DNA of 64,000 bases from Pseudonocardia hierapolitana (GTDB taxonomy: Bacteria > Actinomycetota > Actinomycetes > Mycobacteriales > Pseudonocardiaceae): contig NZ_VIWU01000001.1 of assembly GCF_007994075.1 (NCBI RefSeq), positions 6,696,001-6,760,000 on the forward strand. The letters run 5' to 3'. This document shows, piece after piece, positions 39,058 through 64,000 of this stretch. Positions within the stretch are counted from its first letter, which is position 1. The number at the start of each line of letters is the position of its first letter. Both the position numbers and the translations under genes were made by a program. The notes under the pieces are model-generated. The model saw only the letters and a program-made list of their open reading frames with translations. It was not told where the DNA came from and did not search any database.

Positions 39058-42000
39058 ATGGGTCAGGTGTCTGTGCGCGAAGGCGAGGCCTTCGGCCTTG
39101 CTGTGCGTGCCGACGTCGACGCCGTGCGGCTGCGGCTCTCGCCGGTCGACCGGCTGTGGCAGGTGGTGCGGTGGCTGTGCACGCTCGCCGGAGCGGTCGT
39201 GGTGTTGTGGGTCGGGGCGGCGTTCCTGACGGCGGCCCCGGCATCCGCGGCGGCAGCGATACCGGTCGTGCAGGTTGCAGCCGTCAAGCAGGGTCTGATG
39301 AAGGAAGGCGGCATCAGCCCCGCAGGAAGCGGAGATGGCGACTCGGATTCCGGAGACGGCGATTCGGGTTCTGACGGTGGCGATGACGGTGGGGACTCCG
39401 GATCGGACTCGGAAGGCTCGGATTCGGAGAAGAAGTCGGAGAAGAAGGACTCCGGCGAGGAGGGCTCCGAGAAGAAGGAGTCCAAGAAGCGGGCGTCCGA
39501 GAAGCGGGAGTCCGAGAAGAAGGAGTCCGAGAAGAAGGACTCCGAGAAGAAGGACTCCGAGAAGAAGGACTCCGAGAAGAAGGACTCCAAGAAGAAGGAC
39601 TCCAAGAAGAAGGACTCCAAGAAGAAGGACTCCAAGGAGCAGGAGTCCAAGGAGCGGGAGTCCGAGAAAGAGGAGTCCGAGAAGAAGGACTCCGAGAAGG
39701 AAGAGTCTCGCGAGCGGAACCCGGAGGACTCGGACGGCTCCGAGAGCCGGGAGGGGAACAGCTCGCGGGCCAGCCGGGCCGATACCGAGGACGGGTCGTC
39801 CGGCGATCGCAGGTCGGAGGAAAGCGGTCCGGTCGACGGCGGCGAGCGCACGGGTGAACGAACCTCGCGCCGGCAGTCCGACGACGAGGAGTCCCGCCGG
39901 GAGGAACGACGCTCCGACGGCAGCAGCCGCAACGCGGAGCGGGAGCCGGGCACCGAGAGCACCGGGGACGCCGGGGACGACGAGAGCCGGGAACCGGCGA
40001 ACCAGGACCAGGCCGACCACGACCCGGCGGACCGGGAGAACACGAACGGCGGCGACCGCTCCGCCGCACAGGAGCCGGGTGGGACGCGTGAACGCGGGCA
40101 GGCGCGGGACTCCGAGGCTGAGGGCGTCGATCCGCAGACCGCCTCCGAGGGGGACGGCGGTGACCGCGCCGAGGAGGCCGGGGAGACCGTCCGCGACGAG
40201 CTCGCCGCGCGAGCCGGACGGCGCGACGGCGACGACGGCCAGGGGCGTGAAGATCGCCGCGATCGGACGCGGCCGGTCGACGGGGGCGGTGACCCGGCGG
40301 ACCGGACCGAGACCGGGGCGCGCCGCAGCACGAACGACGGCCATCGTGACAGCGGCGCCGACCGGCCGGGGCTCGGACGGGACGAGGCCGACCGCGAGGA
40401 TCTGGCGGCCCCCTGGAGCCCGACCGACACCGACGGTGAGGCCGACGCCGCTGACACCGACTCGGCCGACGTGAGCGCCTCCGTGCGGCGCCGGGCGGAG
40501 GGCAGCGAGGTCACGGGCGAGGCCGACCGCGGGGATCGGGTCGAGGCAGCCGACGACAGCGGGATCGGTGACGGGCGACGGTCCGGGGCCGAAGCGCTCG
40601 AGGAGCGCGATGAGTCGCCGGACGTGCGGTCGAGGGCGGGTGACGAGCGCGACCGGACCGCCGGACGAAGCGTGTCGGCGGCAGGCGACGACGGCGGTGC
40701 CGTGCGGTGGTCTGCGCTCGCCGAGAAGGTGTCGGATGATGCGCGGCAGCTGAGCCGGGGAGGCCGCGAGTCCCGCGAGGACGGGGACGAGCGCGAGAAC
40801 CGGGACGCGGTCGTCGCGGCGGAGGACGTCTCGCGCGAGGTCACCGACTCCGTCGAGGATCTGGTGGAAGAGCAGGGCGACGATGCCGGCGAAGCAGCGC
40901 GGGACGTGCTGGCGCGCATCCCCGAGTGGGTCGAGGCTGCGTCCTCCGGGGAGGACATCAGCGACCGCGTGGAGGCGGCTCGCGCCGAGTGGGCCGAACG
41001 TGATCGTGACGATGCCGCCGACGGGGAAGACACCGACCGCGACGTCACAGGTCGCGACGGCACAGAGCGCGACGACATCGAGCGCGACGACGTCGCGCGG
41101 GCGGTGCGGGAGCTGACCGAGCGGATCGGTGGTGACCGGGGGCCGGCGCGGCGCAGTGGTGACCTCGATGACGACGGCGTGACGGGCACAGGACGGCTGT
41201 CGGACTCGGACGATCCCGATGGGGAGGCGGTCGGGTCGCCGGCCCGGGAGCGGTTGTCCGACGCGGATGATGATGCCGAGTCGGTACTGCGTGAGCGGTT
41301 CGAGGTGACGCGCGACGGGTCGGAGCAGGACGACGATGCCGGCGAGTCGGAGGATCTGCGTGAGCTGGCCGAGCGGGCCGGCGCGGAGACCGCGCAGGTC
41401 GTCGACCGGTTGGTGGCGCCGTCGGAGCGGCGTGGCGAGGTCGTGATGCGCGACGCGTCGGACCGGCGCCCGCGGGTGGACGCCGAGGAGCTGGATCGAA
41501 TCGGTGACCGGGTGGTCGAGGTCGTCCGGGAAGCGGTGGAGTCCGACGGCGATGCCGACGGTCTCGGCGAGGATCTCGCCGATGCCGTGAACGAGCTGGC
41601 CGATGAGGTGTCCCGGTCGGTTCGGTCGCGTGAGGGGCCGTCGGATCGGCCGGAGCCGCAGCAGGCCGTGCTGACGCGGGACGTGAGCACCAAGAACGCG
41701 GGCGAACGTCAGGTCGCGCCGGGCGACGGCGATGACGCGATCCCGGCCGACGGGACCGACGCCGACTCGTGCGAGGCGTCCGGCGGTGGATGCGCGGAGG
41801 GGACGCTGAGTTCGCGCCTGTTGTCTGCAGAGAGCGCGCGTGGTCCTCCGTCCTCGGCGCGCCACTCCGATGATGACGAGGATGAGGACGAGTACTCCGA
41901 TTCCGAGGAGCTGACAGAGCAGGTTCTGCGGGACCGGATCGAGACGGACAAGAGCGCGGAGGCGCTCGAGGAGAGCCGCCGCGAGGTCGCGGCGGGTGAG

Positions 42001-45000
42001 AAGACGGCCGCTGAGCACGCCGAGCAGGAGGCCGCGCACGAGCGGCGGGTGGCGGAGGCAGAAGCGGCCAGGGCGGAACTGTCGCCCGAGCGGGTCGAGC
42101 TGATCGACGAGGTCGTCGACGGGCACCGGGAGCTGGCGGACCGCGAGGAAGAGCTGGCGACCGAGGAGCGGATGGTCGCGGCGGGCACCACCTCCGAGCG
42201 TGAGCACGAGCGCAACGTCGCGGATCACGAGGAGCGGCGCGACGAGGTCTACGAGGCCACCGACGAGCTGATGGACGCCACCGGGCACGACCTGGACGTG
42301 GTGTCCGAGGACGACCTCGACGGCGAGGGAGCGGTCTCCGGTTGCGGGTCGAGCGGTGTGTTCGTCGGATGCGGGGCGGCGACCGAGGACGCCGACGGCG
42401 AGCGCGACTCGGATCGGTGCGTGGCGCTGTCGGGTGTGTCGGGGTGCGGCGCGTCGTCCAGGTCGGGGGACAACGAGGCATCCGCGTCGTGCGACGTGTC
42501 CGGCGGTTGTGAGAGCAGCGCTGCCGCTCGCGACGAGGACGGCCGGGCTACCCAGGCGTCGGCGCGCTGCAGTGGAGTGTGTGAAGAGCGTTCCCGGGCC
42601 GTGCCGGACGGCGCCTCGGCGGACTGCCACAGCACGAGTGGGTCGTGTGAGAGCAACAGCTCCGGGAGCGACCGCGCCGGCGGGGCCAGGATGGCGAGCA
42701 GCGACGGTGAGGGCACGGCCGACCGGGTGGATGCGGCGGCAGGCGCCGGCAGCGCGTCGGCACGGTGCCAAGGCGGCGACTGCGCGACGTCCAGCTCGGT
42801 GGAGCTGGACGAGGCCGGTGAGGCCGAGGCAGAGGCCGAGGTCGACTGTGGCGCCGGTTGCGCCGGTTCGGCTGCCACGTCGACCGCCGCAGATCACCGT
42901 GCCGGGACCGCGGGTACCGCGACACAGGCGCCCGAGGCGGCCACGGACGCCACTGCGAGCTGCACGGTCGGGGGCGGCGGGTGCCGCGCGGTCTCCGAGT
43001 CCGACGTCGACGGGTCGGGTGACGGCTTCGACATCGACGGTGCCGCCCGCGTCGAGGTCGACTGCGCCGAAGCGCAGTGCTCCGGGAGCGGGACGACCGC
43101 GACGAGCGGGTCCGCGGACGGAGCGACGGCCGGAACGCGTCGCGACAGCCGTGGGACGGCGTCGTGCGAGGTGCGGGGCGGCGGGTGCGAGGCGACGAGC
43201 CGAACCGGGACCGAGACGTCGATCGACGAGTCCGAATCCGAGTCCGCGGACGGGCCGGCGCTGTCGGACGGCGATGCGCTGGTGACCAGCTCGTCGGAGG
43301 TGACCGTCGACTGTGGTGGCGTGGCCGGCTGCACGGGCAAGGGCGCGACGGCGGCCAGCGCGGATGCGGCGAGCGGGACCGGTTCCCAGCGGCTCGGCGA
43401 GGGATCGTCCAGCTGTGAGATCAGCGCAGGCGCCTGCATGGCCGACAGCCACGCCGTCGCGGACGGCTCGTCCGGCAGCGTCGATGGGCCGGGCGACACC
43501 GCCAACTCCACCGGCACCGCTTCGGCGAACGCCGTCGTCGACTGCGCGGGCGTCGCCGGGTGTGGCGGCAAGGGTGCGAGCGGCACCCGGGCGAAGGGCG
43601 TCGGGGTCGCGGCCGGTGGCGCGTCCGCACCGGTGCGTGAGACCACCGGCACGTCGAGTTGCGAGGCCAACGCCACGGGGTGCGTGTCGGACTCGACGTC
43701 GCGTGTGAGCAACGACCACGAACCGACGGCCGCCGACGCCTGGCTGGCCGACCGCAACGCCGAGTCCGCCGCCCGCGCACTCGCGGCAAGGGTCGACTCG
43801 GTCCCGAGCACGGATCCGGCGGCACCGGCCCCGGCGGAGGAGACGGAGCGGACGACCACGACCGGCGACACCGGACCGCTGATCGCGTGGAGCGAGGCGC
43901 ACGCGCGGGTCGCCTGCCAGACCGCCGACTGCTCGGGGCGGGCCGGCAGCGCCACGACCGGCTCCGCGTCCGGCGACGTGGCGTATCGCGACAGCGTGGG
44001 CACGACGTCCTGCGAGACCCGCGGCGCGGGCGGCAGCTGCGGGGCGGACACGAACACGCTGGTGCAGAACCGCTCCGAGCCGGTGATGACCGCGCACGGA
44101 CCCGTGCAGGTCTCCGGGCCGGTCAGCGTCTCCCGCTCCAGCGCGCAGAGCACCTGCCCCGTGGGCTCGATGTCGTGCGGCGGAAAGGCTGCGAGCGAGA
44201 CGAACGCGATCGACCTCGGTGCCAGCGAGCGGCGGCGGGGCTCGAACAGCACCGCGGCCTGCACGGTTGCCGGCGGCGGCTGCACCGGCCAGACGGCTTC
44301 CCAGGCCTCCAGCGCCCCTGAGTTCGTCATCTACGACGCGGTCACGGAGCAGCCCGCCGCCGACCAGCCCCGCAGCGGACCGTCCGGCAACTCCCGGACC
44401 AGCGCGGTCCTCGTCGGCTGCGGCATCGGGTGCACCGGGACGGTCGAGGAAGAGATGAACAACGGCGTCGGCAACGTCGGCGACGGCAACAACGGCGACT
44501 ACAACATCGGGAACCTGAACCAGGGCGACCACAACGTCGGCGACCGCAACATCGGCAACCACAACAAGGGCGATCTCAACCTCGGCGACCACAACACCGG
44601 CGATCGGAACGTCGGCGACCACAACGTGGGCGACCTGAACGTCGGGAACCACAACATCGGCAACCGCAACGTGGGGCACCGCAACCGCGGCGATCTGAAC
44701 CGCGGCTCCGCGAACAAGGGCGACCGCAACCTCGGTAGCGGGAACACCGGAAGCGGGAATGTCGGGGACGGCAACAGGGGTGACCGCAACCGAGGCAGCG
44801 GCAACACCGGCAGCGACAACATCGGCAACGGGAACGTCGGCAACGCCAACCGGGGCAACAACAACCACGGCCACAACAACCAGGGCCATGGGAACCGGGG
44901 TAGCAACAACCACGGCAACCGCAACATCGGCGACAACAACCGCGGCAACGGCAACCGGGGCAACGGGAACCGGGGCAACAGCAATACCGGAAGCTACAAC

Positions 45001-47418
45001 GTCGGCAACGGCAACATCGGCAACCGGAACCGGGGGAACGGGAACCGGGGCAACGGCAACAGCGGTAGCTACAACATCGGCGACGGGAACGTCGGTAGCT
45101 ACAACCGGGGTAGCTACAACGTCGGCAACTCGAACGTGGGTAGCTACAACAGGGGCAATGGCAACGTCGGCAGCTACAACCGCGGGAACTATAACGTCGG
45201 CAACTCGAATGTCGGTAGCTACAACAGGGGCAATGGCAACGTCGGCAGTTACAACCGGGGTAGCTACAACGTCGGCAACTCCAACGTGGGTAGCTACAAC
45301 CGGGGCGACGGCAACGTTGGTAGCTACAACCGGGGGAACTACAACATCGGCAACTCCAACGTCGGCAACCACAACCGCGGCGACGGCAACGTCGGCAACT
45401 ACAACGTCGGCAACTACAACGTCGGCGACCGGAACATCGGTGACCGCAACATCGGAAACGACAACCGAGGCAACGACAACCGGGGCAATGGCAACGTTGG
45501 TGACCGGAACGTGGGTGACCGGAACGTCGGGAACGACAACCGGGGTAACGACAATGTCGGTGACCGGAACGTGGGTGACCGGAACCGGGGTAATGACAAC
45601 CGCGGTAACGACAACGTTGGTGACCGGAACATCGGGGATCGGAACGTCGGGAACGACAACTGGGGTGACGACAACGTTGGTGACCGGAACGTGGGTGACC
45701 GGAACCGAGGCAATGACAACCGGGGTAACGACAACGTTGGTGACCGGAACGTGGGTGATCGGAACCGGGGTAATGACAACCGGGGTAACGACAACACCGG
45801 TGACCGGAATGTGGGTGATCGGAACGTCGGGAACGACAACCGCGGTAACGACAATGTCGGTGACCGGAACGTGGGTGACCGGAACCGGGGTAATGACAAC
45901 CGGGGTAACGACAATGTCGGTGACCGGAACGTGGGTGATCGGAACCGGGGTAATGACAACCGGGGTAACGACAACACCGGTGACCGGAATGTGGGTGATC
46001 GGAACGTCGGGAACGACAACCGCGGTAACGACAATGTCGGTGACCGGAACGTGGGTGACCGGAACCGGGGTAATGACAACCGGGGTAACGACAACACCGG
46101 TGACCGGAATGTGGGTGATCGGAACGTCGGGAACGACAACCGCGGTAACGACAATGTCGGTGACCGGAACGTGGGTGACCGGAACCGGGGTAATGACAAC
46201 CGGGGTAACGACAACACCGGTGACCGGAATGTGGGTGATCGGAACGTCGGGAACGACAACCGCGGTAACGACAATGTCGGTGACCGGAACGTGGGTGACC
46301 GGAACCGGGGTAATGACAACCGGGGTAACGACAACACCGGTGACCGGAATGTGGGTGATCGGAACGTCGGGAACGACAACCGGGGCAACGACAATGTCGG
46401 GGATCGGAACGTCGGGGATCGGAACGTCGGGAACGACAACCGGGGCAACGACAACACCGGTGACCGGAACGTCGGGGATCGGAACGTCGGGAACGACAAC
46501 CAGGGCAACGACAACCTGGGCGACCGGAACGTCGGTGACCGCAACCAGGGCAACGACAACCGCGGCAACGACAACGTGGGCGATCGGAACGTCGGTGACC
46601 GGAACCTGGGCAACGACAACCAGGGCAACGACAACGCCGGGAACGGCAACATCGGCGATCGGAACACGGGTAACGGGCTGCGTGGCAACGACCAGCGGCA
46701 GGGTTGGGACCCGGGCGCGGCGCCGACGGTCGCCGGGGTCGGCGTGGACCTGGCCAACAACTACTACCGGGGGATCGGCACCTACAACGATGCCGCCACC
46801 CGGCACGAGCGGGCTGCGGCGAGGGCGAGCACGCCGGAGGCGGCCGCTCGCCACCAGCGGCTCGCGGACTACTACCGCCAGGCGTCGAGCCAGCTGAGGG
46901 ACATCACGCAGCGGCGGGTGCCGCGGGGGATCCACGGGCACATCCCCGAAGGCGCGCAGCGGTTCAGCGCGCGCACCGCTGCGGACCCGATCAACCGTAC
47001 GACCGGGCCGGACGGGAGCCGGGTGATGGGGGACAGCCGGGTCAAGGAGACCGTCCGTCGCGGGCTGACCAAGGTCACCGGGGCGAGCACGATCATCGGT
47101 GTGGGAATCGATGTCGCCGCCGGAATCTCGGGTGGCGAGGACCCGGCGCACGCGGTCGGTCGGGCCGGCTCGACCGCGATCGTCGGTGCGGCCGCGGGTG
47201 CCGGGGCGCAGGCGGCGATCATTGCGGCCGGGGCGGCGGCCGCGGTTCCGGTCGCGGGGTGGGCGGTCGCGGGCGGCATCCTGGTGGGTGTCGGGGCCTC
47301 GATGCTGTTCGCCAACACGAACGTCGACGACTGGATCGGGGACCGCGCCCAAGACGCGTGGGGCGGGGTCAAGTCCGCGGGTCGCGCTGTCGGCGACTTC
47401 TTCGGCGGCCTGTTCTAG
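39058..47418 (+). CDS. Giant multi-repeat exported protein (2786 residues)
   Basis: Unrecognised as a whole. In order: a polar N-terminus and a hydrophobic segment (about residues 37-62, WLCTLAGAVVVLWVGAAFLT) ending in an AxA-type site (APASAA), so Sec export is likely; a Gly/Asp/Ser linker; a Lys/Glu/Ser array of SEKKD units (residues about 137-216); a highly charged region to about 900; a coiled coil (951-1081); about twenty close Cys pairs (903-1795), alternating C-x3-5-C and C-x6-C; 148 in-register N-x-G-x-x pentapeptides (1801-2540); and a C-terminus with a helical segment (HERAAARASTPEAAARHQRL) and a glycine/alanine-rich hydrophobic stretch (about 2705-2755) before VDDWIGDRAQDAWGGVKSAG. 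The array resembles mycobacterial PPE-MPTR repeats, but no PE/PPE domain is present. The ATG has GGAG upstream. A membrane-protein gene follows after 11 bp. Confidence 0.8.
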   Translation: MGQVSVREGEAFGLAVRADVDAVRLRLSPVDRLWQVVRWLCTLAGAVVVLWVGAAFLTAAPASAAAAIPVVQVAAVKQGLMKEGGISPAGSGDGDSDSGDGDSGSDGGDDGGDSGSDSEGSDSEKKSEKKDSGEEGSEKKESKKRASEKRESEKKESEKKDSEKKDSEKKDSEKKDSKKKDSKKKDSKKKDSKEQESKERESEKEESEKKDSEKEESRERNPEDSDGSESREGNSSRASRADTEDGSSGDRRSEESGPVDGGERTGERTSRRQSDDEESRREERRSDGSSRNAEREPGTESTGDAGDDESREPANQDQADHDPADRENTNGGDRSAAQEPGGTRERGQARDSEAEGVDPQTASEGDGGDRAEEAGETVRDELAARAGRRDGDDGQGREDRRDRTRPVDGGGDPADRTETGARRSTNDGHRDSGADRPGLGRDEADREDLAAPWSPTDTDGEADAADTDSADVSASVRRRAEGSEVTGEADRGDRVEAADDSGIGDGRRSGAEALEERDESPDVRSRAGDERDRTAGRSVSAAGDDGGAVRWSALAEKVSDDARQLSRGGRESREDGDERENRDAVVAAEDVSREVTDSVEDLVEEQGDDAGEAARDVLARIPEWVEAASSGEDISDRVEAARAEWAERDRDDAADGEDTDRDVTGRDGTERDDIERDDVARAVRELTERIGGDRGPARRSGDLDDDGVTGTGRLSDSDDPDGEAVGSPARERLSDADDDAESVLRERFEVTRDGSEQDDDAGESEDLRELAERAGAETAQVVDRLVAPSERRGEVVMRDASDRRPRVDAEELDRIGDRVVEVVREAVESDGDADGLGEDLADAVNELADEVSRSVRSREGPSDRPEPQQAVLTRDVSTKNAGERQVAPGDGDDAIPADGTDADSCEASGGGCAEGTLSSRLLSAESARGPPSSARHSDDDEDEDEYSDSEELTEQVLRDRIETDKSAEALEESRREVAAGEKTAAEHAEQEAAHERRVAEAEAARAELSPERVELIDEVVDGHRELADREEELATEERMVAAGTTSEREHERNVADHEERRDEVYEATDELMDATGHDLDVVSEDDLDGEGAVSGCGSSGVFVGCGAATEDADGERDSDRCVALSGVSGCGASSRSGDNEASASCDVSGGCESSAAARDEDGRATQASARCSGVCEERSRAVPDGASADCHSTSGSCESNSSGSDRAGGARMASSDGEGTADRVDAAAGAGSASARCQGGDCATSSSVELDEAGEAEAEAEVDCGAGCAGSAATSTAADHRAGTAGTATQAPEAATDATASCTVGGGGCRAVSESDVDGSGDGFDIDGAARVEVDCAEAQCSGSGTTATSGSADGATAGTRRDSRGTASCEVRGGGCEATSRTGTETSIDESESESADGPALSDGDALVTSSSEVTVDCGGVAGCTGKGATAASADAASGTGSQRLGEGSSSCEISAGACMADSHAVADGSSGSVDGPGDTANSTGTASANAVVDCAGVAGCGGKGASGTRAKGVGVAAGGASAPVRETTGTSSCEANATGCVSDSTSRVSNDHEPTAADAWLADRNAESAARALAARVDSVPSTDPAAPAPAEETERTTTTGDTGPLIAWSEAHARVACQTADCSGRAGSATTGSASGDVAYRDSVGTTSCETRGAGGSCGADTNTLVQNRSEPVMTAHGPVQVSGPVSVSRSSAQSTCPVGSMSCGGKAASETNAIDLGASERRRGSNSTAACTVAGGGCTGQTASQASSAPEFVIYDAVTEQPAADQPRSGPSGNSRTSAVLVGCGIGCTGTVEEEMNNGVGNVGDGNNGDYNIGNLNQGDHNVGDRNIGNHNKGDLNLGDHNTGDRNVGDHNVGDLNVGNHNIGNRNVGHRNRGDLNRGSANKGDRNLGSGNTGSGNVGDGNRGDRNRGSGNTGSDNIGNGNVGNANRGNNNHGHNNQGHGNRGSNNHGNRNIGDNNRGNGNRGNGNRGNSNTGSYNVGNGNIGNRNRGNGNRGNGNSGSYNIGDGNVGSYNRGSYNVGNSNVGSYNRGNGNVGSYNRGNYNVGNSNVGSYNRGNGNVGSYNRGSYNVGNSNVGSYNRGDGNVGSYNRGNYNIGNSNVGNHNRGDGNVGNYNVGNYNVGDRNIGDRNIGNDNRGNDNRGNGNVGDRNVGDRNVGNDNRGNDNVGDRNVGDRNRGNDNRGNDNVGDRNIGDRNVGNDNWGDDNVGDRNVGDRNRGNDNRGNDNVGDRNVGDRNRGNDNRGNDNTGDRNVGDRNVGNDNRGNDNVGDRNVGDRNRGNDNRGNDNVGDRNVGDRNRGNDNRGNDNTGDRNVGDRNVGNDNRGNDNVGDRNVGDRNRGNDNRGNDNTGDRNVGDRNVGNDNRGNDNVGDRNVGDRNRGNDNRGNDNTGDRNVGDRNVGNDNRGNDNVGDRNVGDRNRGNDNRGNDNTGDRNVGDRNVGNDNRGNDNVGDRNVGDRNVGNDNRGNDNTGDRNVGDRNVGNDNQGNDNLGDRNVGDRNQGNDNRGNDNVGDRNVGDRNLGNDNQGNDNAGNGNIGDRNTGNGLRGNDQRQGWDPGAAPTVAGVGVDLANNYYRGIGTYNDAATRHERAAARASTPEAAARHQRLADYYRQASSQLRDITQRRVPRGIHGHIPEGAQRFSARTAADPINRTTGPDGSRVMGDSRVKETVRRGLTKVTGASTIIGVGIDVAAGISGGEDPAHAVGRAGSTAIVGAAAGAGAQAAIIAAGAAAAVPVAGWAVAGGILVGVGASMLFANTNVDDWIGDRAQDAWGGVKSAGRAVGDFFGGLF
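39466..39705 (+). repeat. 15-bp tandem array coding SEKKD/SKKKD
   Basis: Sixteen consecutive 15-bp units, mostly TCCGAGAAGAAGGAC with variants, code for a Lys/Glu pentapeptide array. It is the same period as the later Asn array, though the sequence is unrelated. It should form a charged, extended or helical stalk. Confidence 0.85.
44458..46677 (+). repeat. 148-unit pentapeptide array (N-x-G-x-x)
   Basis: Every 15 bp begins with AAC or AAT and has a Gly codon third, without a phase break over 148 units. Position 2 is mainly V, R, I or T; positions 4-5 are D/N/S plus R, D, G, N, H or Y. The pattern agrees with Pfam Pentapeptide_2, known from PPE-MPTR proteins, and predicts a repetitive beta-solenoid. 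The first half is varied (GNG, GSY, GNS units, local 75-bp period near 45090-45380); the second half is dominated by NVGDR and NRGND. Confidence 0.9.
45781..46380 (+). repeat. Identical 120-bp higher-order tandem copies
   Basis: Inside the pentapeptide array the 120-bp block 45961-46080 (8 units) is followed by nucleotide-identical copies at 46081-46200 and 46201-46320, and a further identical half at 46321-46380. The block 45781-45900 is also identical, separated by one related 60-bp unit. No silent differences exist between these copies, so they arose recently. Confidence 0.92.
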
Positions 47419-47429
47419 AGGAGGTGGTG

Positions 47430-48110
47430 GTGTCGAACGGGGATCTGCCTCCCGCACCGGACTCGTCCGGGCAGCGGAGGCCGCCGACCGCGCCGCGCGT
47501 CGACGGTCCTTGGCAGGGTGAGCGCTACCGGCTGAAGGCCGCCCACCACCAGGTCGCCGACCGGCTGTTCGTCGCCTCGACCGGGCAGGGTGATCCGTTG
47601 CTGGAGAGCGTCGCGGCCCGCCCGCCGAGACGCCTGCGGGACGCCGCTCTCGGGGCGGTGTACATGGTCCTGCCGGTCGCCGTCGTGATCGCGCTCGTCG
47701 TGTGGTTCACGGCCGAGGACCGGACGCTCGCCTTTCTGATCTCCGCGGCCGTCGTCGCGGCGGTTGCCGTGCTGGCGTTCTGGTACAACGCCTCCGAGCC
47801 GACCGTCGTGCTGCGGGCCGGTGCGCGTGCCGTCGCCGAGGTGGACGCGGACGGCGCCGGAACCCACCTACCGCTCTACGAGCTGCGCTCGGTCAGCGTC
47901 ACGGATTCGCCGCGAGGTCTCGCGCTCCGGCTCGTCGGGCCGGCCGGCCAGCGGCTCACCCTGCCGTTCGGGCTGCTGGAGGCCAATCAACGGCTCTGGG
48001 ATCTCGTGTACAGCGGCATCCGGCACTCGGAGGAAGGCGGCGCCGAGATCGACGAGCGCACGCGACGGGTGCTCCACCTGCCGCCGCGCCGTTCCGAGAC
48101 CGGCGCCTGA
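47430..48110 (+). CDS. Two-helix membrane protein next to the giant gene
   Basis: A 226-residue protein. A Pro-rich N-terminus leads into a polar segment, two adjacent transmembrane helices (GAVYMVLPVAVVIALVVWFT and LAFLISAAVVAAVAVLAFWY, about residues 75-118) and a cytoplasmic or exterior beta-rich domain (VLRAGARAVAEVDADGAGTH, ELRSVSVTDSPRGLALRLVG) that looks PH-like. The GTG at 47430 has GGAGG five bases upstream. It lies 11 bp after the giant gene and is probably co-transcribed. It could anchor, help export or protect against the giant protein; nothing in the sequence decides this. Confidence 0.75.
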   Translation: MSNGDLPPAPDSSGQRRPPTAPRVDGPWQGERYRLKAAHHQVADRLFVASTGQGDPLLESVAARPPRRLRDAALGAVYMVLPVAVVIALVVWFTAEDRTLAFLISAAVVAAVAVLAFWYNASEPTVVLRAGARAVAEVDADGAGTHLPLYELRSVSVTDSPRGLALRLVGPAGQRLTLPFGLLEANQRLWDLVYSGIRHSEEGGAEIDERTRRVLHLPPRRSETGA

Positions 48111-48567: not shown

Positions 48568-50223
<1,656 letters not shown>

Positions 50224-54837: not shown

Positions 54838-56600
54838 TGACCCTGCTCCCCGTCGCCGGGCCTCGCGAGTCGTGGTCGTGGCTGTTCGCCGAGCTGCGCC
54901 ACCATCTCGCGCTGACCGTCGGCACCCTGATGATCGGCATCGTCGCGGCGGCCGCGGCCGTGCTGCCGGCGTACGTCTTCGGCCAGCTGGTCGACCGCGT
55001 CCGCGGCCAGGAACCGGCGTCGTCGCTCGTGACCATCTCGATCGTCCTGGTCGTCGCCGCGGTCGTCGGCGGCATCAGCTCAGCGGCGGCGACGTACCTC
55101 ACGACGAGGCTCGGCGAGACGGTGTTGGCCACGCTGCGCGAGCGCGTCGTGCAGCGGGCGTTGACGCTGCCGACCGCGGTGATCGAGAAGGCCGGCAAGG
55201 GCGATCTCCTGTCGCGGATCGGCGACGACGTCAACACGATCGGCCGGGCCGTCACGGAGGTCCTGCCGAAGGTCATCTCCTCGCTGCTGGTGGCGGTGCT
55301 CGGCATCGTCGCGATGACGGGACTGGACTGGCGGCTCGGGCTCGCCGGGCTGGCCGCGGTCCCGCTGTACGTCCTCGGCCTGCGGTGGTACCTGCCGCGG
55401 TCGGCTCCGATGTACGCCGACCAGCGCAAGGCGGTCGCGGCCCGGTCGCAGGCGTTGATGGAGAGCATGCTCGGGGCGAGGACCGTGCACGCCTACGGCC
55501 TGGAACGGCGGCACCTCACCGAGATCGACGCCGCCGCCGTCCGCGCGCGGGACCTCTCGATCGGGATCGTGACGCTGTTCACCCGGTTCGTGGGACGCAC
55601 CAACCGCGCCGAGTTCGTGGGCCTGTCGGTGATTCTGATCGTCGGCTTCGTGCTGGTCCGCGGGGACCTGGTCACGGTCGGCGCGGCGACCGCGGCCGCG
55701 TTGCTGTTCCACCGGCTCTTCGATCCGGTCGGCACGGTGCTGCACAGCTTCGACGAGGTGCAGTCGGCAGGCGCGGGCCTGGCTCGGCTGGTCGGGGTGG
55801 TGAGCATCCCGGAGGAGGCGCCCGCTGCGCTCCGCGTGGCCCACACCCCCGAGGACTCCTCCCTGGAGCTGCGGGACATCGAGTTCGGCTACGAACCGGG
55901 CATTCCGGTGCTCTACGGGGTGAGCGTGCGGATCGAGGCGGGGGAGCGGGTCGCCCTCGTCGGGTCCACGGGGGCGGGGAAGACCACCTTGGCGGCCATC
56001 GCCGCCGGGTTGCTCGTCCCCACGGGCGGCTCGGTGCGCCTGGGCGGGGTCGCGCTGCGCGAGCTCACCTCGGACCAGCTGCGCGCCCAGGTGGCGATCG
56101 TCAGCCAGGAGGTCCACGTGTTCGCCGGGCCGCTGGTCGACGACCTCCGGCTCGCGCGTCCGGACGCCACGGCGGACGATGTGCGCGCGGCGCTGGCGTG
56201 CGTCGACGCGCTCGGCTGGGTCGACGCGCTGCCCGAGGGCATCGAGACGCGGGTGGGGGAGGGCGGACGCACCCTCACGGCGGCCCAGGCGCAACAGCTC
56301 GCGCTCGCCAGGCTGGTGCTGCGTGATCCGGGCGTGGCGATCCTCGACGAGGCGACCGCGGAGGCGGGCAGCCTCGGCGCGCGCGGGCTGGAGCTGGCCG
56401 CGGCGGCCGCGACGGCCGGCCGCACGACCTTGATCGTGGCCCACCGGCTGACCCAGGCGGCGGCCGCCGACCGCGTGATCGTGCTCGAACACGGACGCAT
56501 CGTCGAGGCAGGCGCCCATTCCGAACTTCTCGCGGCCGGCGGACGGTACGCCGAGCTGTGGGGTGCGTGGCGGTCGCGGGCCACCGCCGTAGCCGACTGA
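54837..56600 (+). CDS. ABC transporter half, exporter fold, partner subunit
   Basis: A 587-residue TMD-NBD protein. Walker A is canonical (VALVGSTGAGKTTLAAIAAG), Walker B with Glu (VAILDEATAEAG), and the switch His is in LIVAHRLTQAA. The signature motif is degenerate (RTLTAAQAQQLALARLVL instead of LSGGQ). So the pair keeps one good composite site, made of this Walker A/B and the other subunit's LSGGQ. Direction of transport (export of apo-siderophore or IrtAB-like import) cannot be settled. It lies 48 bp before the NRPS. Confidence 0.9.
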   Translation: MTLLPVAGPRESWSWLFAELRHHLALTVGTLMIGIVAAAAAVLPAYVFGQLVDRVRGQEPASSLVTISIVLVVAAVVGGISSAAATYLTTRLGETVLATLRERVVQRALTLPTAVIEKAGKGDLLSRIGDDVNTIGRAVTEVLPKVISSLLVAVLGIVAMTGLDWRLGLAGLAAVPLYVLGLRWYLPRSAPMYADQRKAVAARSQALMESMLGARTVHAYGLERRHLTEIDAAAVRARDLSIGIVTLFTRFVGRTNRAEFVGLSVILIVGFVLVRGDLVTVGAATAAALLFHRLFDPVGTVLHSFDEVQSAGAGLARLVGVVSIPEEAPAALRVAHTPEDSSLELRDIEFGYEPGIPVLYGVSVRIEAGERVALVGSTGAGKTTLAAIAAGLLVPTGGSVRLGGVALRELTSDQLRAQVAIVSQEVHVFAGPLVDDLRLARPDATADDVRAALACVDALGWVDALPEGIETRVGEGGRTLTAAQAQQLALARLVLRDPGVAILDEATAEAGSLGARGLELAAAAATAGRTTLIVAHRLTQAAAADRVIVLEHGRIVEAGAHSELLAAGGRYAELWGAWRSRATAVAD

Positions 56601-56648
56601 CGAGCGCCCTCCGAAAGGACCCTCCCGAGAGGACGAGGTGGGACTGGC

Positions 56649-59600
56649 ATGACCATCGAGCGGGACGCGTTCGACACCCTGGCCGAGCGTCTCCGGGCGC
56701 TGGCCGAGTGGAACGACTCGACGCTGCCTTCGCACACCACGACCGTCGCCGAGATGTTCGAACGCGCGGTGCGTGCGCATCCCGACGCGCTCGCGCTGGT
56801 GGCCGGGAGCGGGGGAGGCGGGCGTTCGGTACAGCTCACCTACACCGAGCTGGCCGAGCGCGTGAACCAGCTCGCGCACCACCTCCTGGAGCGCGGGCTC
56901 ACCGCGGAGCAGGTCGTCGCCGTCCACCTCCCGCGGTCGGCGGAGATGGTGGTCTCGGTACTGGCGATCATGGTGGCGGGCGGCGCCTTCGTGCCGGTCG
57001 ATCCGGAGTGGCCGCAGCAGCGCCGCAGGCAGGTGCTCGACGACGCCGGTGCGGTGATGATGGTGACCGCCCCGGCCGGGACCGGCGCGCCCGAGGGCGG
57101 GTCGCTCGTGCCCGCGGCGGTGGTCGACCTCGACGCATGGGCCTACGCCGGGCTCCCCGCCCGGCCGCCCGCCGTGACCGTCGAGCCCCAGCGCCTGGCC
57201 TACGTGATGTTCACGTCCGGGTCGACCGGCAAGCCCAAGGGCGCCATGATCCGGCACGAGGCCATCTGCAACCGGCTGCAGTGGCAGGTGGAGAAGATCC
57301 TGGGCTTCGGGCCGGGGGACGCCGCGCTGTTCAAGGCACCGCTGTCGTTCGACATCTCGGTCAACGAGATCCTGCTGCCGCTCGTCTCCGGCGGCTACGT
57401 CGTCGTCGCCGAACCGGGCGGCGACCGCGATCCGCAGTACCTCCTCGACGTCATCGCCACCGAGGGCGTCACGTTCGTCTACCTCGTCTCCTCGATGCTC
57501 GACGTGCTGCTGGAGATGGCGCGCGGCACCGCGAAGCTCGACGGGCTCAAGCACGTCTGGTGCGGTGGGGAGGTCCTGACGCCGGAGCTGTTCGAGCGGT
57601 TCCGGGCGCAGCTGACCACCACGCTGTACCACGGGTACGGCCCCGCCGAGGCCACGATCGGCGTCTCGCACGTGATCTACCGGGACGACGCCGAGCGGAT
57701 CGCCACCTCCATCGGGCGGCCCAACCCCTACACCCAGCTCTACGTGCTCGACGAGAACCTGCACCCGGCGCCGGTCGGTGTCGGGGGCGAGCTCTACGCG
57801 GGTGGTTTCCTGCTCGGCCGCGGCTACGTCAACGCGCCGGGTCTGACGGCGGCCCGGTTCGTCGCGAACCCGTTCGCCGACGACGGTTCGCGCCTCTACC
57901 GCACCGGTGACCTGGCGCGGTGGCACGAGGACGGGTCGCTGGAGTTCCTGGGCCGTGCCGACAACCAGGTGAAGATCCGCGGTATGCGCCTCGAGCTGGA
58001 GGAGGTCGAGGCGGTGCTGGCCACCCACCCGGGTGTCCGGCAGGCGGTCGTGATGGCGCGGGACAACGCCGCGGGGGCGAAGTACCTGGCCGGCTACGCG
58101 CTCGCCACCACGGTCGGCGAGGAGGATCTCCGCCGGTGGTGCGCCGACCGGCTGCCCGAGTACATGGTTCCCACCACGTTCACCGTGCTGGACGCGTTCC
58201 CGCTGACGTCGAACGGGAAGGTGGACCGGAAGGCCCTGCCCGAACCGCGGCGCGAGGGCAGGGCCGGGCGGGCGCCGCGCACTCCGCGCGAGCGCACGCT
58301 GTGCGGGATCTTCGCCGACGTCCTCGGGCTCCCCGAGGTCGGCGCCGACGACGACTTCTTCGCGCTGGGCGGCGACAGCATCGTCGCGATCGGGGTGGTC
58401 AGCAGGGCCCGGCGCGCCGGGCTCGTCCTGCGGCCGCGCGAGCTGTTCGAGCTGCGCACCCCGGCAGCGCTGGCGCTGGCCGCGAGCGATGCCGATCCCG
58501 CCGAGCGCGTCGCGACCGTCGAGCCGGTGGGCGGCCTGCCGGCCACCCCCGTCCTCGAGTGGCTCTGGGAGACCGGGCCGTCGGAGGGCTTCTACCAGTC
58601 CATCACCGTGCACAGCCCGGCCGAGCTCACGCCCGACCGCCTCACGGAGGTGGCCTCGGCGCTGCTGCGCCATCACGACGTGCTCCGCGCGGTGGTCGCG
58701 ACGGGCGCCGACGGCAGGCCCACGGTCCGGGTGCCCGCCGAGGTTCCGGCGCCGTCCGTCACCCACGTGCGGCTGGGCGCGGACGAGTCCGTCGACGAGC
58801 GGCTGAGCCGGGAGACGGCCGCCGCCGTGTCCCGGCTGGACGCAGGCTCCGGCCGGATGGTCGAGTTCGTGTGGCTGGACCGCGGGAGCGAACGTCACGG
58901 CAGGCTCGTCGTGGCCGTCCACCACGTGGTGGTGGACGGCGTGTCGCTGCGCATCCTGGCCGAGGACCTGCAGGCGTTGTGGGCGGGCCGCACGCCCGAT
59001 CCGGCGTCGACCTCCTTTCGGGAATGGGCGCTCGCCCTCGCCGACGCCGCGCGGGCGGGAGAGTTCGACGACGACCTCGCCTTCTGGCGGGAGGTGGCGG
59101 CCGCCCCGAACCCGGTGATCGGCCGCCGGGCACTCGACGCGGGCGTCGACACGGTCGCGACCGAGCGGGAGCTGACCGTCACGCTGCCGAGCGCGCTCAC
59201 CGAGCCGCTGCTGGGCGCCGTGCCCGCCGCGATCCACGGCGGCGTCAACGACGCGCTGGTGGCGGCGCTGGCGCTGGCCGTGATCGAGTGGCGCGGCGAG
59301 GCTGCGGGCCGCAGGCTCCTCCTGGAGATGGAAGGGCACGGCCGGGAGGCCGAGCTGCTGACGGGGAACCTCGACCTCTCCCGCACCGTCGGCTGGTTCA
59401 CCACGCTCTACCCCGTCGCCATCGAGGTCCCCGACGGCGGGTCGGCCGCGGTCGTCAAGGGGATCAAGGAGCAGCTGCGTGCGGTGCCCCGCAACGGGCT
59501 GAGCTACGGCGCATTGCAGTACCTCACGGACGCGCGTGCCGATCTCGCGGTGGCGCCCGCGCTGCTGTTCAACTACCTCGGCCGGTTCTCCGCTGACTCC

Positions 59601-62600
59601 GAGGTCGGTGAGGACCGCGACCCGCGCATGCCGCTGCCGCGCGCGCTCGAGATCAACGCCATCACCGTCGACACCACCGACGGTCCGGTGCTGTCGGCGC
59701 GGTTCAGCTGGCCGGCCGCCGTGCTCGACGAGGCAGAGGTCGGGGCGCTGGCCGAGCTCTGGCTGGAACGGCTCGGTGCGATCGCGGGCGACGAGACGGT
59801 CGCGGGGTTCACGCCGTCGGACTTCCCGCTCGTCGAGCTCGATCCGTCCGATGTGGACGAGCTGGAACGCGAGGTCCCCGACCTGCAGGACGTGCTGCCC
59901 CTGCTGCCCCTGCAGGAGGGTATGTACTTCCACGCGAGCTACGGGGACGACGCCGACGACACGGTCGACGCCTACCGGATCCAGCAGATCGCCGAGCTCA
60001 CCGGCCCGCTGGACGCGGACAAGCTGAAGGACGCGGTCGCCGCGATGATCGACCGCCATCCCGCCCTGCGCGCCGGGTTCCGCGGTCTCGCCGACGGGCG
60101 CGTCGTCCAGGTCGTCAGCGGGCACGTCGACCTCGACTGGCGGGCGATCGACCTCACCGACCGGAGCCACGCCGACGCGGTGGCCGAGCTGGAGCGGGCG
60201 GCCGCCGCCGACCGGGCCCGGCCGTTCGTGCTGGCCGAGCCGCCGCTGCTGCGCTACAGCGTGGTGTCGTTGACCCCGACCGAGCACCGGCTGGTGCAGA
60301 CGATGCACCACATCATCGCCGACGGCTGGTCGTACCCGTTGATGTTCAACGACATCGTCGACGCCTACCGCGGCACGCTGCGCGGCTTGCCCGCCGTCGC
60401 GCTGGGCCAGCACATCGCCGCGATCGCCCGCTCCGACGCGCAGGAGACGGGCGCCGTGTGGGCCGACGCGCTGGCCTGCGTCGACGAGCCGACGCTGCTC
60501 GTCGACGCCGACCCGGGTGCGGCGGTCGGGGAGCACCGCATCGTCGCCGAGGAGCTCTCGGCCGAGGCGACGGCGGCGCTGGCCCGGACCGCGCGCGACC
60601 TCGGCGTCACCCTCAGCACCGTCCTGCACGCCGCCTGGGGCCTGCTGCTGGGCGGCACCGTCGGCGAGGACACCGTCGTCTTCGGATCGACCGTCTCGGG
60701 GCGCGCCGGGAACTCCGTGCCCGGGGTCGACGCCGTGGTCGGGCTGCTGATCAACACCGTCCCGGTGCCGATGACGTGGGCGAAGGACGAGCCGGTCGGC
60801 GCCGTGGTGCGCCGGCTGCAGGACGAGCAGACCGCGGTGCTCGACCACCAGCACGCCGGGCTGGCCGAGCTGACCCGGTCGCGGGGTCTGCGCACGCTGT
60901 TCGACACGCTCGTGATCGTCGAGAACTTCCCCGAGGTCTACGCCCCGGCCGACGACGGCCTGTCGGTGCGCGGGTTCACGTCCACCACCTTCTCGCACTA
61001 CCCCGTGTCGATGGTCGCCTTCCCCGGCGAGCGGTTGCGGGTGGAGGTGAAGTACGACGTCGGCCTGGTGTCCGAGGACCGTGCCCATCGGCTGCTGCGG
61101 CAGGTGACGCACGTCCTCGACCGGCTGGCGGCCGATCCCGGAGTCCCGGTCGGCCGACTGGAGCTGATCGGCCCGGACGAGCGGACGCTGGTCCTCGACA
61201 CGTTCAACGACACCGCCCACGACCTGGGCGCCCCGACCCTGCGCAGCCGCTTCGAGCACTGGGCGGCACGCACCCCCGACACCACCGCCGTGGTGTTCGA
61301 GGGCGAGGCGGTCACCTACGCCGAGCTGAACGCGCGCGCGAACCGGCTGGCCCACCGCCTCATCGCGCAGGGCGTGAGGCGCGGGTCGGTGGTCGCCGTC
61401 GTGCTCGAGCGCTCGGTGGAGCTCATCGTCGCGCTGTACGCGGTGCACAAGGCGGGCGCGGCCTACCTGCCGGTCGACCCCGGCTACCCGGCCGAGCGGA
61501 TCGCCTTCATGCTCGACGACGCCCGGCCCGCCCACGTGCTCGACGATCCGGCGGCCTTCCCCACCGACGGGGACGAGTCGAACCCGGACGTGGAGGTCAC
61601 GCCCGCCGACCCCGCGTACGTCATCTACACCTCGGGCTCCACCGGGCGCCCGAAGGGCGTCGTCGTGCCGCACGGCGCCGCGGCCAACTTCCTGTCGTGG
61701 ATGCAGGAGACCTACCGACTGGAACCGGGCGAACCCACCCTGCTGAAGACCCCGTCGAGCTTCGACGCGTCGCTGCGGGAGCTGTTCTGGCCGTTGATGT
61801 CCGGCGCCACGATGGTGATCGCGAAGCCGGAGGGGCACAAGGACGCGGCCTACCTCGCCGAGCTGATCCAGGCCCACCAGGTCACCACGGCCCAGTTCGT
61901 GCCGTCGATGTTCGGGGTGTTCCTCGAGGAACCCACCGTTCGCCGGTGCACCTCGCTCCGGCGCGTGATCTGCGGCGGCGAGGCGCTGCCCGCGGACGTC
62001 GTCGCGCGGTTCCGGGCCATCACCGAGCTGACCGGCGCCGAGCTGCACAACGTCTACGGCCCCACCGAGGCCGCCATCGACGTCACCGGCTGGGACACCT
62101 CGGAACGGCCGGACCGGCGGTCCGTGCCCGTGGGGCGGCCGGTCTTCAACACCCGGCTCTACGTGCTCGACGGGGCGCTGCGCCCGGTGCCGCCCGGTAC
62201 GGACGGTGAGCTGTACATCGCAGGCGTGCAGCTCGCGTACGGCTACCTCAACCGGCCGGGGCTGACGGCGGAGCGGTTCGTCGCCGACCCGAACGCGGCG
62301 GGCGAGCGGATGTACCGCAGCGGCGACCTCGCCCGCTGGGACGACACCGGCGTGCTGGAGATCCTCGGCCGCAGCGACCACCAGGTGCAGGTGCGCGGCT
62401 TCCGGATCGAGCCGGGGGAGATCGAGGCCGCGCTGGTGGCCGCCGACGAGGTCACGCGCGCGGTGGTGGTGGTGCGGGACGGCCGGCTCGTCGCCTACGT
62501 CGTCGGTGCGGGGATCGACCCCGAGGCGTTGCGGGAGCAGGTGTCCCGGGTCCTGCCCGAGCACATGGTGCCCTCGATCGTGGTGGTGCTCGACGCGTTC

Positions 62601-64000
62601 CCGCTGACCCCGAACGGCAAACTGGACCGCAAGGCGCTGCCGGACCCCGACTTCGGCGGCCTCGTGTCCGACCGCGGACCGCGCACCGAGCGGGAGGAGC
62701 GGCTCTGCGGCCTCTTCGCCGACGCCCTGCGCCTCGAGCGAGTGGGGATCGACGACGACTTCTTCGCACTCGGCGGCGACAGCATCACCTCGATCGCCGT
62801 GTCCGGCCGGGCCCGCCGCGCCGGGATGCGGATCACGCCGCGGGACATCTTCCGGCTGCGCACCGTGCAGGCACTGGCCGCGGGCCTCGGCGACGCCCTC
62901 GACGCCGCCCTCGACGCAGCCCCCGCCCCGGAGGCGGATGACGGCGCCGGGCCGGTGCCGCTCACGCCGGTGATGGCGGAGGTCGTGCAGGACGGCATCC
63001 CGCTGGAGAACTTCTTCCAGTCCATGCTGGTGCGCACCCCCGCGTCGTTGACGCGCGGGGATCTCGAACGCATCCTGCGCGCGGTCGTCGACCGGCACGC
63101 GCTCCTGCGGGCCGCGGTCGACACCGGGGACGACACGAGCGGCGCGTGGGCGCTCCACGTGCCCGAGGCCGCGGGTGGGCCGGTCCCGATCACCGAGAGC
63201 ACGGGTGACGCCGAGCCGTCGCCGGAGGTGGTCGAGCGCGCCACCCGGGAGGAGGCCGCGCTGCTCGACGCCCGGCGCGGGGTCATGCTGCGGGCGCACT
63301 GGTTCCGCGACGCGGGCCGGCTGCTGCTGGTCGCGCACCACCTCGTCATCGACGGCGTGTCCTGGCGCATCCTCACCGCCGACCTCGCCGCCGCCTGGCA
63401 GGCCCTCGCGGCGGGCCGCGAACCCGAGCCGGAGCCGGTGGGGACCTCCTACCGGTCGTGGTCGCGGATCCTGCGGCAGGCCGCGGAGAGCGGGGACTTC
63501 CGCGCCGAGCTCGGGCACTGGCGCGACGTGCTGAGCACACCCGACCCGGTTCTCGGCGACCGCGCCCTCGATCCGCGGACCGACGTCGACGCGACCACCG
63601 ACACCCTCGACGTCGACCTGCCCCCCGAGGTGTTCGGGAGCCTCGCCCCGGCGATCCACGGCGGTGTCGACGACATCCTGCTCACCGGGCTCGCCGTCGC
63701 GCTGCAGCAGTGGCGGCGCCGCCGCGGCGTCGACGCGGGCTCGGCGGTGCTGCTGCGTGTGAAGGGGCACGGCCGGGAGGGCGACCTCTTCGACACGAGC
63801 GGGCGGCACATCGACCTGTCCCGGACCGTCGGATCGTTCACGAGCATCTACCCGGTCCGGCTCGACCCGGGTGAGGTGTCCTCGGCGGACGTGACCTCTG
63901 CGGGGCCTCGGCTCGCCCGGGCGGCGAAGCTCGTCAAGGACCAGCTGCGGGTGCCGTCGGCCGGCATCGGCTACGGCGTCCTGCGATACCTCGACGAGGA
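56649..64000 (+). CDS. Siderophore NRPS, 5' part (A-T-E-C-A-T-E...)
   Basis: The frame is open to the window end, giving 2450 residues. Module 1: adenylation ([14 protein letters not shown] near residue 185, [10 protein letters not shown]), carrier with Ser577 (LGGDSI), epimerisation (HHVVVDG at about 758, EGHGRE). Module 2: condensation ([13 protein letters not shown] about 1084, HHIIADG about 1220), adenylation ([14 protein letters not shown] about 1658), carrier Ser2045, epimerisation (HHLVIDG about 2230, cut by the end). My reading of the first adenylation code is D-I-N-Y-W-G-G-I-G-K, as I recall for acylated N5-hydroxyornithine in coelichelin/erythrochelin assembly lines. The second reads D-A-R-Q-I-G-V-I-D-K, which I cannot assign. 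Both GGDS carriers precede E domains, as is usual. No starter C domain exists, and no MbtH or formyltransferase is in view. The ATG at 56649 has GAGG ten bases ahead. Confidence 0.93.

Follow-up and report, generated by a model that had tools for sequence, protein, structure and literature searches.

A giant Pseudonocardia stalk protein with a pentapeptide array and a downstream partner gene: a putative polymorphic toxin and immunity pair

The locus and its reading frames

The window analyzed here (64,000 nucleotides of the Pseudonocardia hierapolitana genome) contains a giant open reading frame that is directly followed by a small partner gene (Table 1). The giant is a single intact ORF without internal stops, and its codon-position GC content (0.70/0.54/0.87) resembles that of both adjoining genes with which it was compared. 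An overlapping frame of 2886 aa on the minus strand, with a codon GC of 0.86/0.55/0.70, was taken for a shadow frame. The source genome consists of a single contig of 8.86 Mb and the pentapeptide array is therefore not located at a contig break. Full-length open relatives are found in two other genomes, namely G022 (2302 aa) and G012 (P. eucalypti, 2182 aa).

From its N-terminus onward, the giant comprises a predicted export signal, an acidic and lysine-rich region, a coil, a region of cysteine pairs, the pentapeptide array and a C-terminal tip. The first-pass annotation had described a single frame of 2786 residues with a signal segment, a Lys array, a coil, Cys pairs, 148 pentapeptides and a glycine-rich hydrophobic C-terminus, and all of these could be recovered from the sequence. 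The frame is intact both here and in the two full-length relatives. Identity to the G022 giant rises along the protein, from 42% in the charged region through 59% in the coil and 79% in the Cys region to 89% at the tip, the most conserved segment.

Table 1. Features of the giant and its partner gene (window coordinates unless stated otherwise)
Feature	Position	Strand	Remarks
Giant ORF	39058 (ATG) to 47418 (stop)	+	2786 aa
Predicted export signal, residues 1-66	39058..39255	+	hydropathy; conserved in relatives
Charged low-complexity region, residues 61-953	39238..41916	+	net -120; 42% identity to G022
Lys/Glu 15-bp array	39428-39699	+	18.1 copies
Coiled-coil-like conserved segment, residues 954-1091	41917..42330	+	coil judged by eye; 59% to G022
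Cys-pair region, residues 1092-1799	42331..44454	+	19 Cys pairs; 79% to G022
148 N-x-G-x-x pentapeptides, residues 1801-2540	44458..46677	+	in-register count; Pfam
C-terminal tip, residues 2542-2786	46681..47415	+	helical segment, then Gly/Ala-rich hydrophobic domain 47062-47415
AGGAGG ribosome-binding site	47419..47424	+	between giant stop and next start
Putative immunity gene, 226-aa protein	47430..48110	+	predicted TM 73-91, 99-117; C-terminal N..LWDLVY.G motif
Giant paralogue (L158-L162), 21,891 residues	own genome 4045526-4111201	+	same signal + stalk

In a Pfam scan, Pentapeptide_2 (PF01469) was the sole family matched by the giant at E <= 1, and the TPS secretion domain of the CDI protein CdiA was not matched at that threshold. 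No PE, PPE, WXG100 or LXG domain was found with Pfam or NCBIfam. PADLOC did not match the giant or its partner, and PHROGs gave one match to the giant, to a family of unknown function with its best stretch within the array. Two hydrophobic segments are apparent from the hydropathy profile, at residues 40-58 and 2673-2737.

Two other frames of the window may be mentioned here. On the minus strand, 48568-50223 holds a frame of 551 residues with a long Ser-Asp repeat tail, which scores far below the NCBIfam cut-off for Clf/Sdr adhesins and has no Pfam match. Also on the minus strand, 55080-63809 holds a frame of 2909 aa without a Pfam match; at 0.95/0.49/0.76, its codon GC departs from that of the neighboring genes, which suggests a shadow frame.

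Export signal, charged region and Cys pairs

The predicted signal has a 39-residue n-region with VRLRLSPVDRLWQVVRW, followed by a hydrophobic stretch (40-58) and A-x-A sites at 60-66. It can be aligned from the start Met in seven family members, including four paralogues of the own genome and two other proteins, and this conserved N-terminal signal would export the giants. The long charged region behind it includes the Lys-rich 15-bp array noted earlier; as a correction, residues 61-953 as a whole are net acidic. The stretch around the coil shares 49-60% identity with the own-genome paralogues.

The giant contains 41 cysteines. Apart from Cys41, which lies in the signal segment, they form 20 pairs, in agreement with the earlier estimate of about twenty: one pair at 905/912 and a further 38 Cys at 1096-1792. 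Short (3-8) and long (>=14) spacings alternate, and this alternation is kept in G022 (17 pairs) and in G012 (18 pairs, with long spacings >=10).

The pentapeptide array

The in-register count of 148 N-x-G-x-x units was borne out, as was the claim that these MPTR-type repeats occur without a PE or PPE domain. The array matches Pentapeptide_2 with an E-value of 1.1e-120 in 27 stretches and displays a higher-order repeat of 120 bp (8 units) at 45463-46634 (90% match). The copy number varies: three relatives have frames with 141, 127 and 108 N-x-G-x-x matches. Array and tip each occur once in the source genome.

A solenoid fold for PF01469 is described in PMC11795689 on the agreement of four methods. 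Structure prediction had been proposed for both the pentapeptides and the C-terminus. In an AlphaFold model of the array end and tip (mean pLDDT 43.5) the array part alone reaches 74-78, and the tip was predicted with low confidence. The model of the Cys region and array start was not usable (mean pLDDT 29.4), and no fold was drawn from either model. Foldseek returned no match at E 1e-3 for the array-end and tip model, and its ferritin-like top hits, none of which reaches that threshold, were disregarded.

The C-terminal tip

GxxxG motifs are not enriched in the tip: five were observed against 5.05 in shuffled sequences. Small-xxx-small motifs are slightly more frequent, at 19 against 13.5, a count that is reached by 5.9% of the shuffles. 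There is one strict GxxxGxxxG match, at 2775, which falls short of a glycine-zipper run.

The tip is present in the own genome and in 6 of 47 congeners, and in none of 32 genomes from other families. Array and tip are absent from the own-genome paralogues. Scanning GTDB with the tip profile gave seven named loci, all from Pseudonocardia (P. kunmingensis, sp. MH-G8, P. eucalypti, P. acaciae and P. spinosispora). The copies in G045 and G010 start at contig ends.

The tip is also found on other stalks, in P. spinosispora (L031) and P. acaciae (L029, L033), where the upstream parts are N-G-rich or unassigned. In L031 (10421-14737) the part in front of the same tip has a Pro-rich region as well as irregular G-N-x-N repeats. 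Tip and partner form no operon on these stalks: L031 and L029 have the partner on the opposite strand, at a distance of about 1.1 kb, and none was seen near the L033 tip on its 3.4-kb contig.

In a homologue search based on the tip of the full-length giant, no database protein out of 7973 scored candidates reached E 1e-3; this search also missed the known giants, and its length limits possibly left out short effectors. When repeated from the G022 stalk, the homologue search succeeded. Against the sequences of the PDB, the best E-value of the tip profile was 0.3.

The partner gene

The partner starts with GTG, 12 bases past the stop of the giant. Its protein belongs to no Pfam or NCBIfam family over the cut-off, and the partner profile had no match in the PDB. 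Among 7997 candidates scored, 52 database proteins were matched at E 1e-3, including the partner itself, one named Plantactinospora and one Streptomyces. It shares 79% identity with its G022 counterpart.

All seven genomes with a tip contain the gene, which stands directly 3' of all seven pentapeptide-type tips. It also occurs apart from the tip: G030 has a copy split over frames, with no tip match and, on inspection by eye of about 2 kb upstream, no trace of a giant; G040 has a weak, partial match without a tip match; and G012 has a second copy with no tip upstream. Across all six frames of the window, the C-terminal partner motif has a single occurrence, namely the one in the partner. The gene is absent from the PLSDB plasmids at 1e-5. 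In 12 loci, tblastn at 1e-6 gave no match to any of nine flanking ORFs, although one of these had been translated in a wrong frame. Since the flanks are short (about 3-5 kb upstream), these results suggest, short of proof, that tip and partner may form a mobile pair.

Tip and partner in WXG100-type effector loci

A ten-tip profile matches at least 23 of 390 Pseudonocardiaceae genomes, 7 from Pseudonocardia and 16 from others in five genera. In a class-wide sample there were matches in at least 4 of 394 genomes, the own included and the other three weak. Twenty of the 21 weak tip loci were read (L089 was left out, and two pairs overlap). The partner was found in the flanks of 16 of these 20, which correspond to 14 distinct places, several of them twice, and a WXG100-type motif lies in frame in 12. 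When seven of the tip-search hits were scanned with Pfam, five passed the WXG100 cut-off. These five carry no other cargo above the cut-off, and one of them also passes T7SS_signal. Four tip loci show tail-only frames of 125-180 residues.

In three loci (L084, L088 and L091) the gene behind a variant tip encodes another membrane protein, some 290 residues long (TM segments judged by eye), perhaps a second tip and partner pairing. A further hit, L082, was rejected as a false relative since it is a GH-E nuclease. The WXG-type relative in L087 has a weak PADLOC match to LeoBC (E 2.3e-5).

Profile comparison with hhalign aligned the tip with the WXG100-type effectors at a probability of 98.3 (E 1.7e-14, 103 columns), and the partner with the genes behind these effectors at 99.7 (E 4e-26). 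Taken alone, the tip match is weakened by the small size and Gly/Ala-richness of the tip alignments. Judged by these profiles, the last ~100 columns of the tip are homologous to the tails of WXG100-type effectors from other Pseudonocardiaceae.

The partner is far more widespread, with profile matches in at least 96 of 390 Pseudonocardiaceae genomes and at least 28 of 46 genera, and with up to at least seven copies per genome. Outside the genus, 22 partner loci were inspected, of which 19 are new and three (L107, L118 and L121) are already within the 16 above. Thirteen stand behind an ORF with a Gly-rich tail; WxG occurs in the N-terminal part of 10 of these 13 ORFs, and at least one GxxxGxxxG likewise in 10. 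The remaining loci comprise three behind another partner copy, one behind a broken Gly-rich frame and five with nothing recognizable. Pfam gave a WXG100-type match for 6 of 10 scanned ORFs upstream of the partner, one of them above the cut-off. An EccC match above the cut-off is present in all 11 genomes tested. The giant is linked to type VII effectors via its tip domain, and no link was found via the pentapeptides.

The stalk family and its exchanged tails

Of 62 Pseudonocardia genomes, 22 have a match to the coil and Cys-region stalk. A search of a 297-genome family sample with the first 261 stalk residues matched eight genomes, one of them by a weak hit outside the genus. Six proteins, none with N-x-G-x-x runs, are 38-45% identical to the G022 giant in the coil and Cys region, of which they cover 37-100%. 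One of them, P0057, has a terminal Colicin_D domain at residues 3018-3096 of 3132, which scores 27.8 bits where the cut-off is 25, and another, P0056, contains DUF4781 plus SecA_DEAD near its end. The other four have no Pfam family at E 0.05. The alignment of P0053 with P0057 (44%) stops at residue 3287 of 3467 and 2942 of 3132, respectively, and the last ~180 residues differ.

The source genome itself contains four close paralogues that share the signal. Their open frames have 21,891, 9,229, 3,607 and 3,060 residues and can be aligned to the giant only as far as residue 1796. Their tails were scanned in five pieces with Pfam at E 0.01. The end of the 21,891-aa frame contains NUDIX and DUF3990 above the cut-off, preceded by a piece with Trypsin_2 below the cut-off; the tail of the 9,229-aa paralogue has Trypsin_2 above the cut-off, and the other two pieces gave no hit at this threshold. 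The gene 3' of the 9,229-aa paralogue is, by eye, a metabolic-looking frame that does not resemble an immunity gene. A SMI1_KNR4-like gene behind the 3,607-aa paralogue scored below the cut-off and was not used. The stalk family thus carries Colicin_D, SecA_DEAD, DUF3990 with NUDIX, or the tip of the giant. The same stalk with differing tails is the behavior of polymorphic toxins.

Other very large frames were encountered. A distant stalk match lies at 6437404-6438057 (+) of the own genome, inside an open frame of 11,962 residues. In P. eucalypti (L169-L177; G012 contig C3, 815157-987998, minus strand) a frame of at least 57,613 residues, or 58,239 by the genome-wide stalk search, is open within 180 kb. 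It is still open at the fetched upstream end and has a stalk match (coil and Cys pairs) near its start. The frame contains no stops, against 232-1482 in the other frames, and has a steady codon GC of about 0.7/0.5/0.9. If translated, this protein would presumably rank among the largest.

Proposed function and alternatives

Visible in the DNA are the order of the domains and of the genes, the reuse of one stalk with different tails and the homology of tip and partner to WXG100-effector pairs. They are best accommodated, with a probability of roughly 0.7, by a Sec-exported, stalked and membrane-acting antibacterial polymorphic toxin with its immunity gene, in which the pentapeptide array would extend the stalk. 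Export, orientation, disulfides, membrane damage, toxicity and immunity are here inferred from sequence.

In the proposed mechanism, the N-terminal signal would direct the giant to the general secretory route, and the protein may remain anchored in or near the envelope of the producer. The acidic and lysine-rich stretch would span the wall. Coil, disulfide-paired Cys region and pentapeptide solenoid would together act as a long spacer, the Cys pairs being oxidized outside the cell to stiffen the stalk and the pentapeptides adding length. The Gly/Ala-rich helical tip, as on WXG100-type effectors, would then enter the membrane of a touching cell and render it leaky. In the producer membrane, the two-TM partner would block the tip. 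Membrane damage and two-TM immunity are proposed because the tip is common to WXG100-type proteins and the LXG glycine-zipper toxins damage membranes. The earlier suggestion of a fibre, stalk or giant effector comes close. The protein is probably stalk and effector at once, because the pair of tip and next gene recurs in WXG100-type loci and the N-terminal two thirds are reused with other tails; the pair and the reused stalk had lain outside that claim.

Several observations run counter to the toxin reading. The tips of polymorphic toxins are usually their most variable part, whereas here the tip is the least variable segment. GxxxG is not enriched in it and its structural model is of low confidence, the pair forms no operon on the other stalk, one of ten ORFs scanned upstream of the partner passes the WXG100 cut-off, and the gene behind the 9,229-aa paralogue looks metabolic. 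Moreover, the presence of this tip on a second type of stalk would be just as compatible with a shared anchor. The giant could then be a non-toxic surface fibre, with a C-terminus that anchors it in the producer membrane, a two-TM partner that aids anchoring or assembly, and a Cys region and pentapeptides displayed for adhesion or aerial growth. The strong conservation of a tip common to two stalk types and the predicted membrane location of the partner both fit such a fibre. However, the tip domain occupies the usual toxin position in the WXG100 proteins, five of which show no other Pfam cargo above the cut-off, the partner is found in tandem copies and without a tip, and other members of the stalk family carry Colicin_D or other domains instead. 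The surface fibre is therefore considered unlikely, and an anchoring role for tip and partner is similarly doubtful.

Export as a type VII (ESX) substrate, by analogy with the mycobacterial PPE-MPTR proteins, is highly improbable. The Pentapeptide_2 array, the homology of the tip to WXG100-type effector tips and an EccC gene above the cut-off in the source genome would agree with it, but this gene is about 2.27 Mb distant, and the giant has a conserved Sec-like signal in place of a PE, PPE or WXG100 domain. That the frame is decaying or untranslated can hardly be maintained: signal and body are in different frames in P. kunmingensis, the MH-G8 array contains a run of N and codon-position changes in the coil are little biased (36/33/41), but the frames here, in G022 and in G012 are intact, codon GC is normal, and changes are biased to the third position in the Cys region (71/80/179) and in the tip (25/11/60).

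Returning to the toxin and immunity reading, a broader proposal can be made, for which the odds appear even. Pseudonocardia may possess its own class of contact-dependent weapon, consisting of Sec-exported giants with a disulfide stalk and swappable tips, whose open frames reach tens of thousands of residues. The MPTR array would be an adjustable spacer that was added in this branch for a tip of the kind that type VII effectors also carry.

Comparison with known systems

The giant joins MPTR pentapeptide arrays, effector domains of the type VII kind and stalked surface toxins, which are usually treated apart. The two-gene pair provides a testable function, and pentapeptide arrays gain a candidate role as spacer. 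If this is true, MPTR arrays would be solenoid presentation spacers, which bears on the open role of the arrays in PPE-MPTR proteins. The stalk giants are also a little-known family of actinobacterial surface proteins that is hardly covered by Pfam. No report of Pseudonocardia stalk toxins or of pentapeptide-array toxin stalks was found in the literature searched, with most subscription journals and bioRxiv lying outside the search.

Compared to the mycobacterial PPE-MPTR proteins as described in PMC4858275, the giant shares the Pentapeptide_2 array. It differs in that it lacks a PE/PPE domain and in that its array joins a Cys stalk to a tip.

TelE (PMC10434224) and EsxX (PMC12744356) are described as membrane-damaging LXG toxins of type VII systems whose C-termini form glycine zippers; TspA (PMC7456083) is considered alongside them. 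Tandem and orphan immunity genes for type VII toxins are described in PMC9484751 and PMC12744356. By these descriptions the giant resembles TelE, EsxX and TspA in its predicted C-terminal membrane-acting domain and in its candidate immunity proteins, some of them tandem or orphan. Unlike these toxins, it contains no LXG/WXG domain, and GxxxG is not enriched in its tip.

Surface-borne, membrane-acting toxins with immunity that work in a contact-dependent manner are described for the CdiA ionophores of CDI (PMC11630599) and for Cdz of Caulobacter (PMC5380434), and these properties are proposed for the giant as well. Set beside the giant by description, both are Gram-negative systems, CDI being exported by CdiB two-partner secretion and Cdz by type I secretion.

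The closest parallel is with the polymorphic toxins described in PMC3482391, which combine a trafficking module, a filament, a C-terminal toxin, a nearby immunity gene and tail exchange. The filaments named there are RHS, filamentous haemagglutinin, phage tail-fibre and ALF repeats; 'pentapeptide' and 'MPTR' have no occurrence in the text available from that source. The giant shares with these toxins the succession of trafficking module, filament, tip and neighboring gene as well as the exchange of tails. It differs in its stalk, which is made of Cys pairs and N-x-G-x-x repeats rather than of RHS or the other filaments. The giant would be a variation on the stalked polymorphic toxins, with a Cys-pair and pentapeptide stalk.
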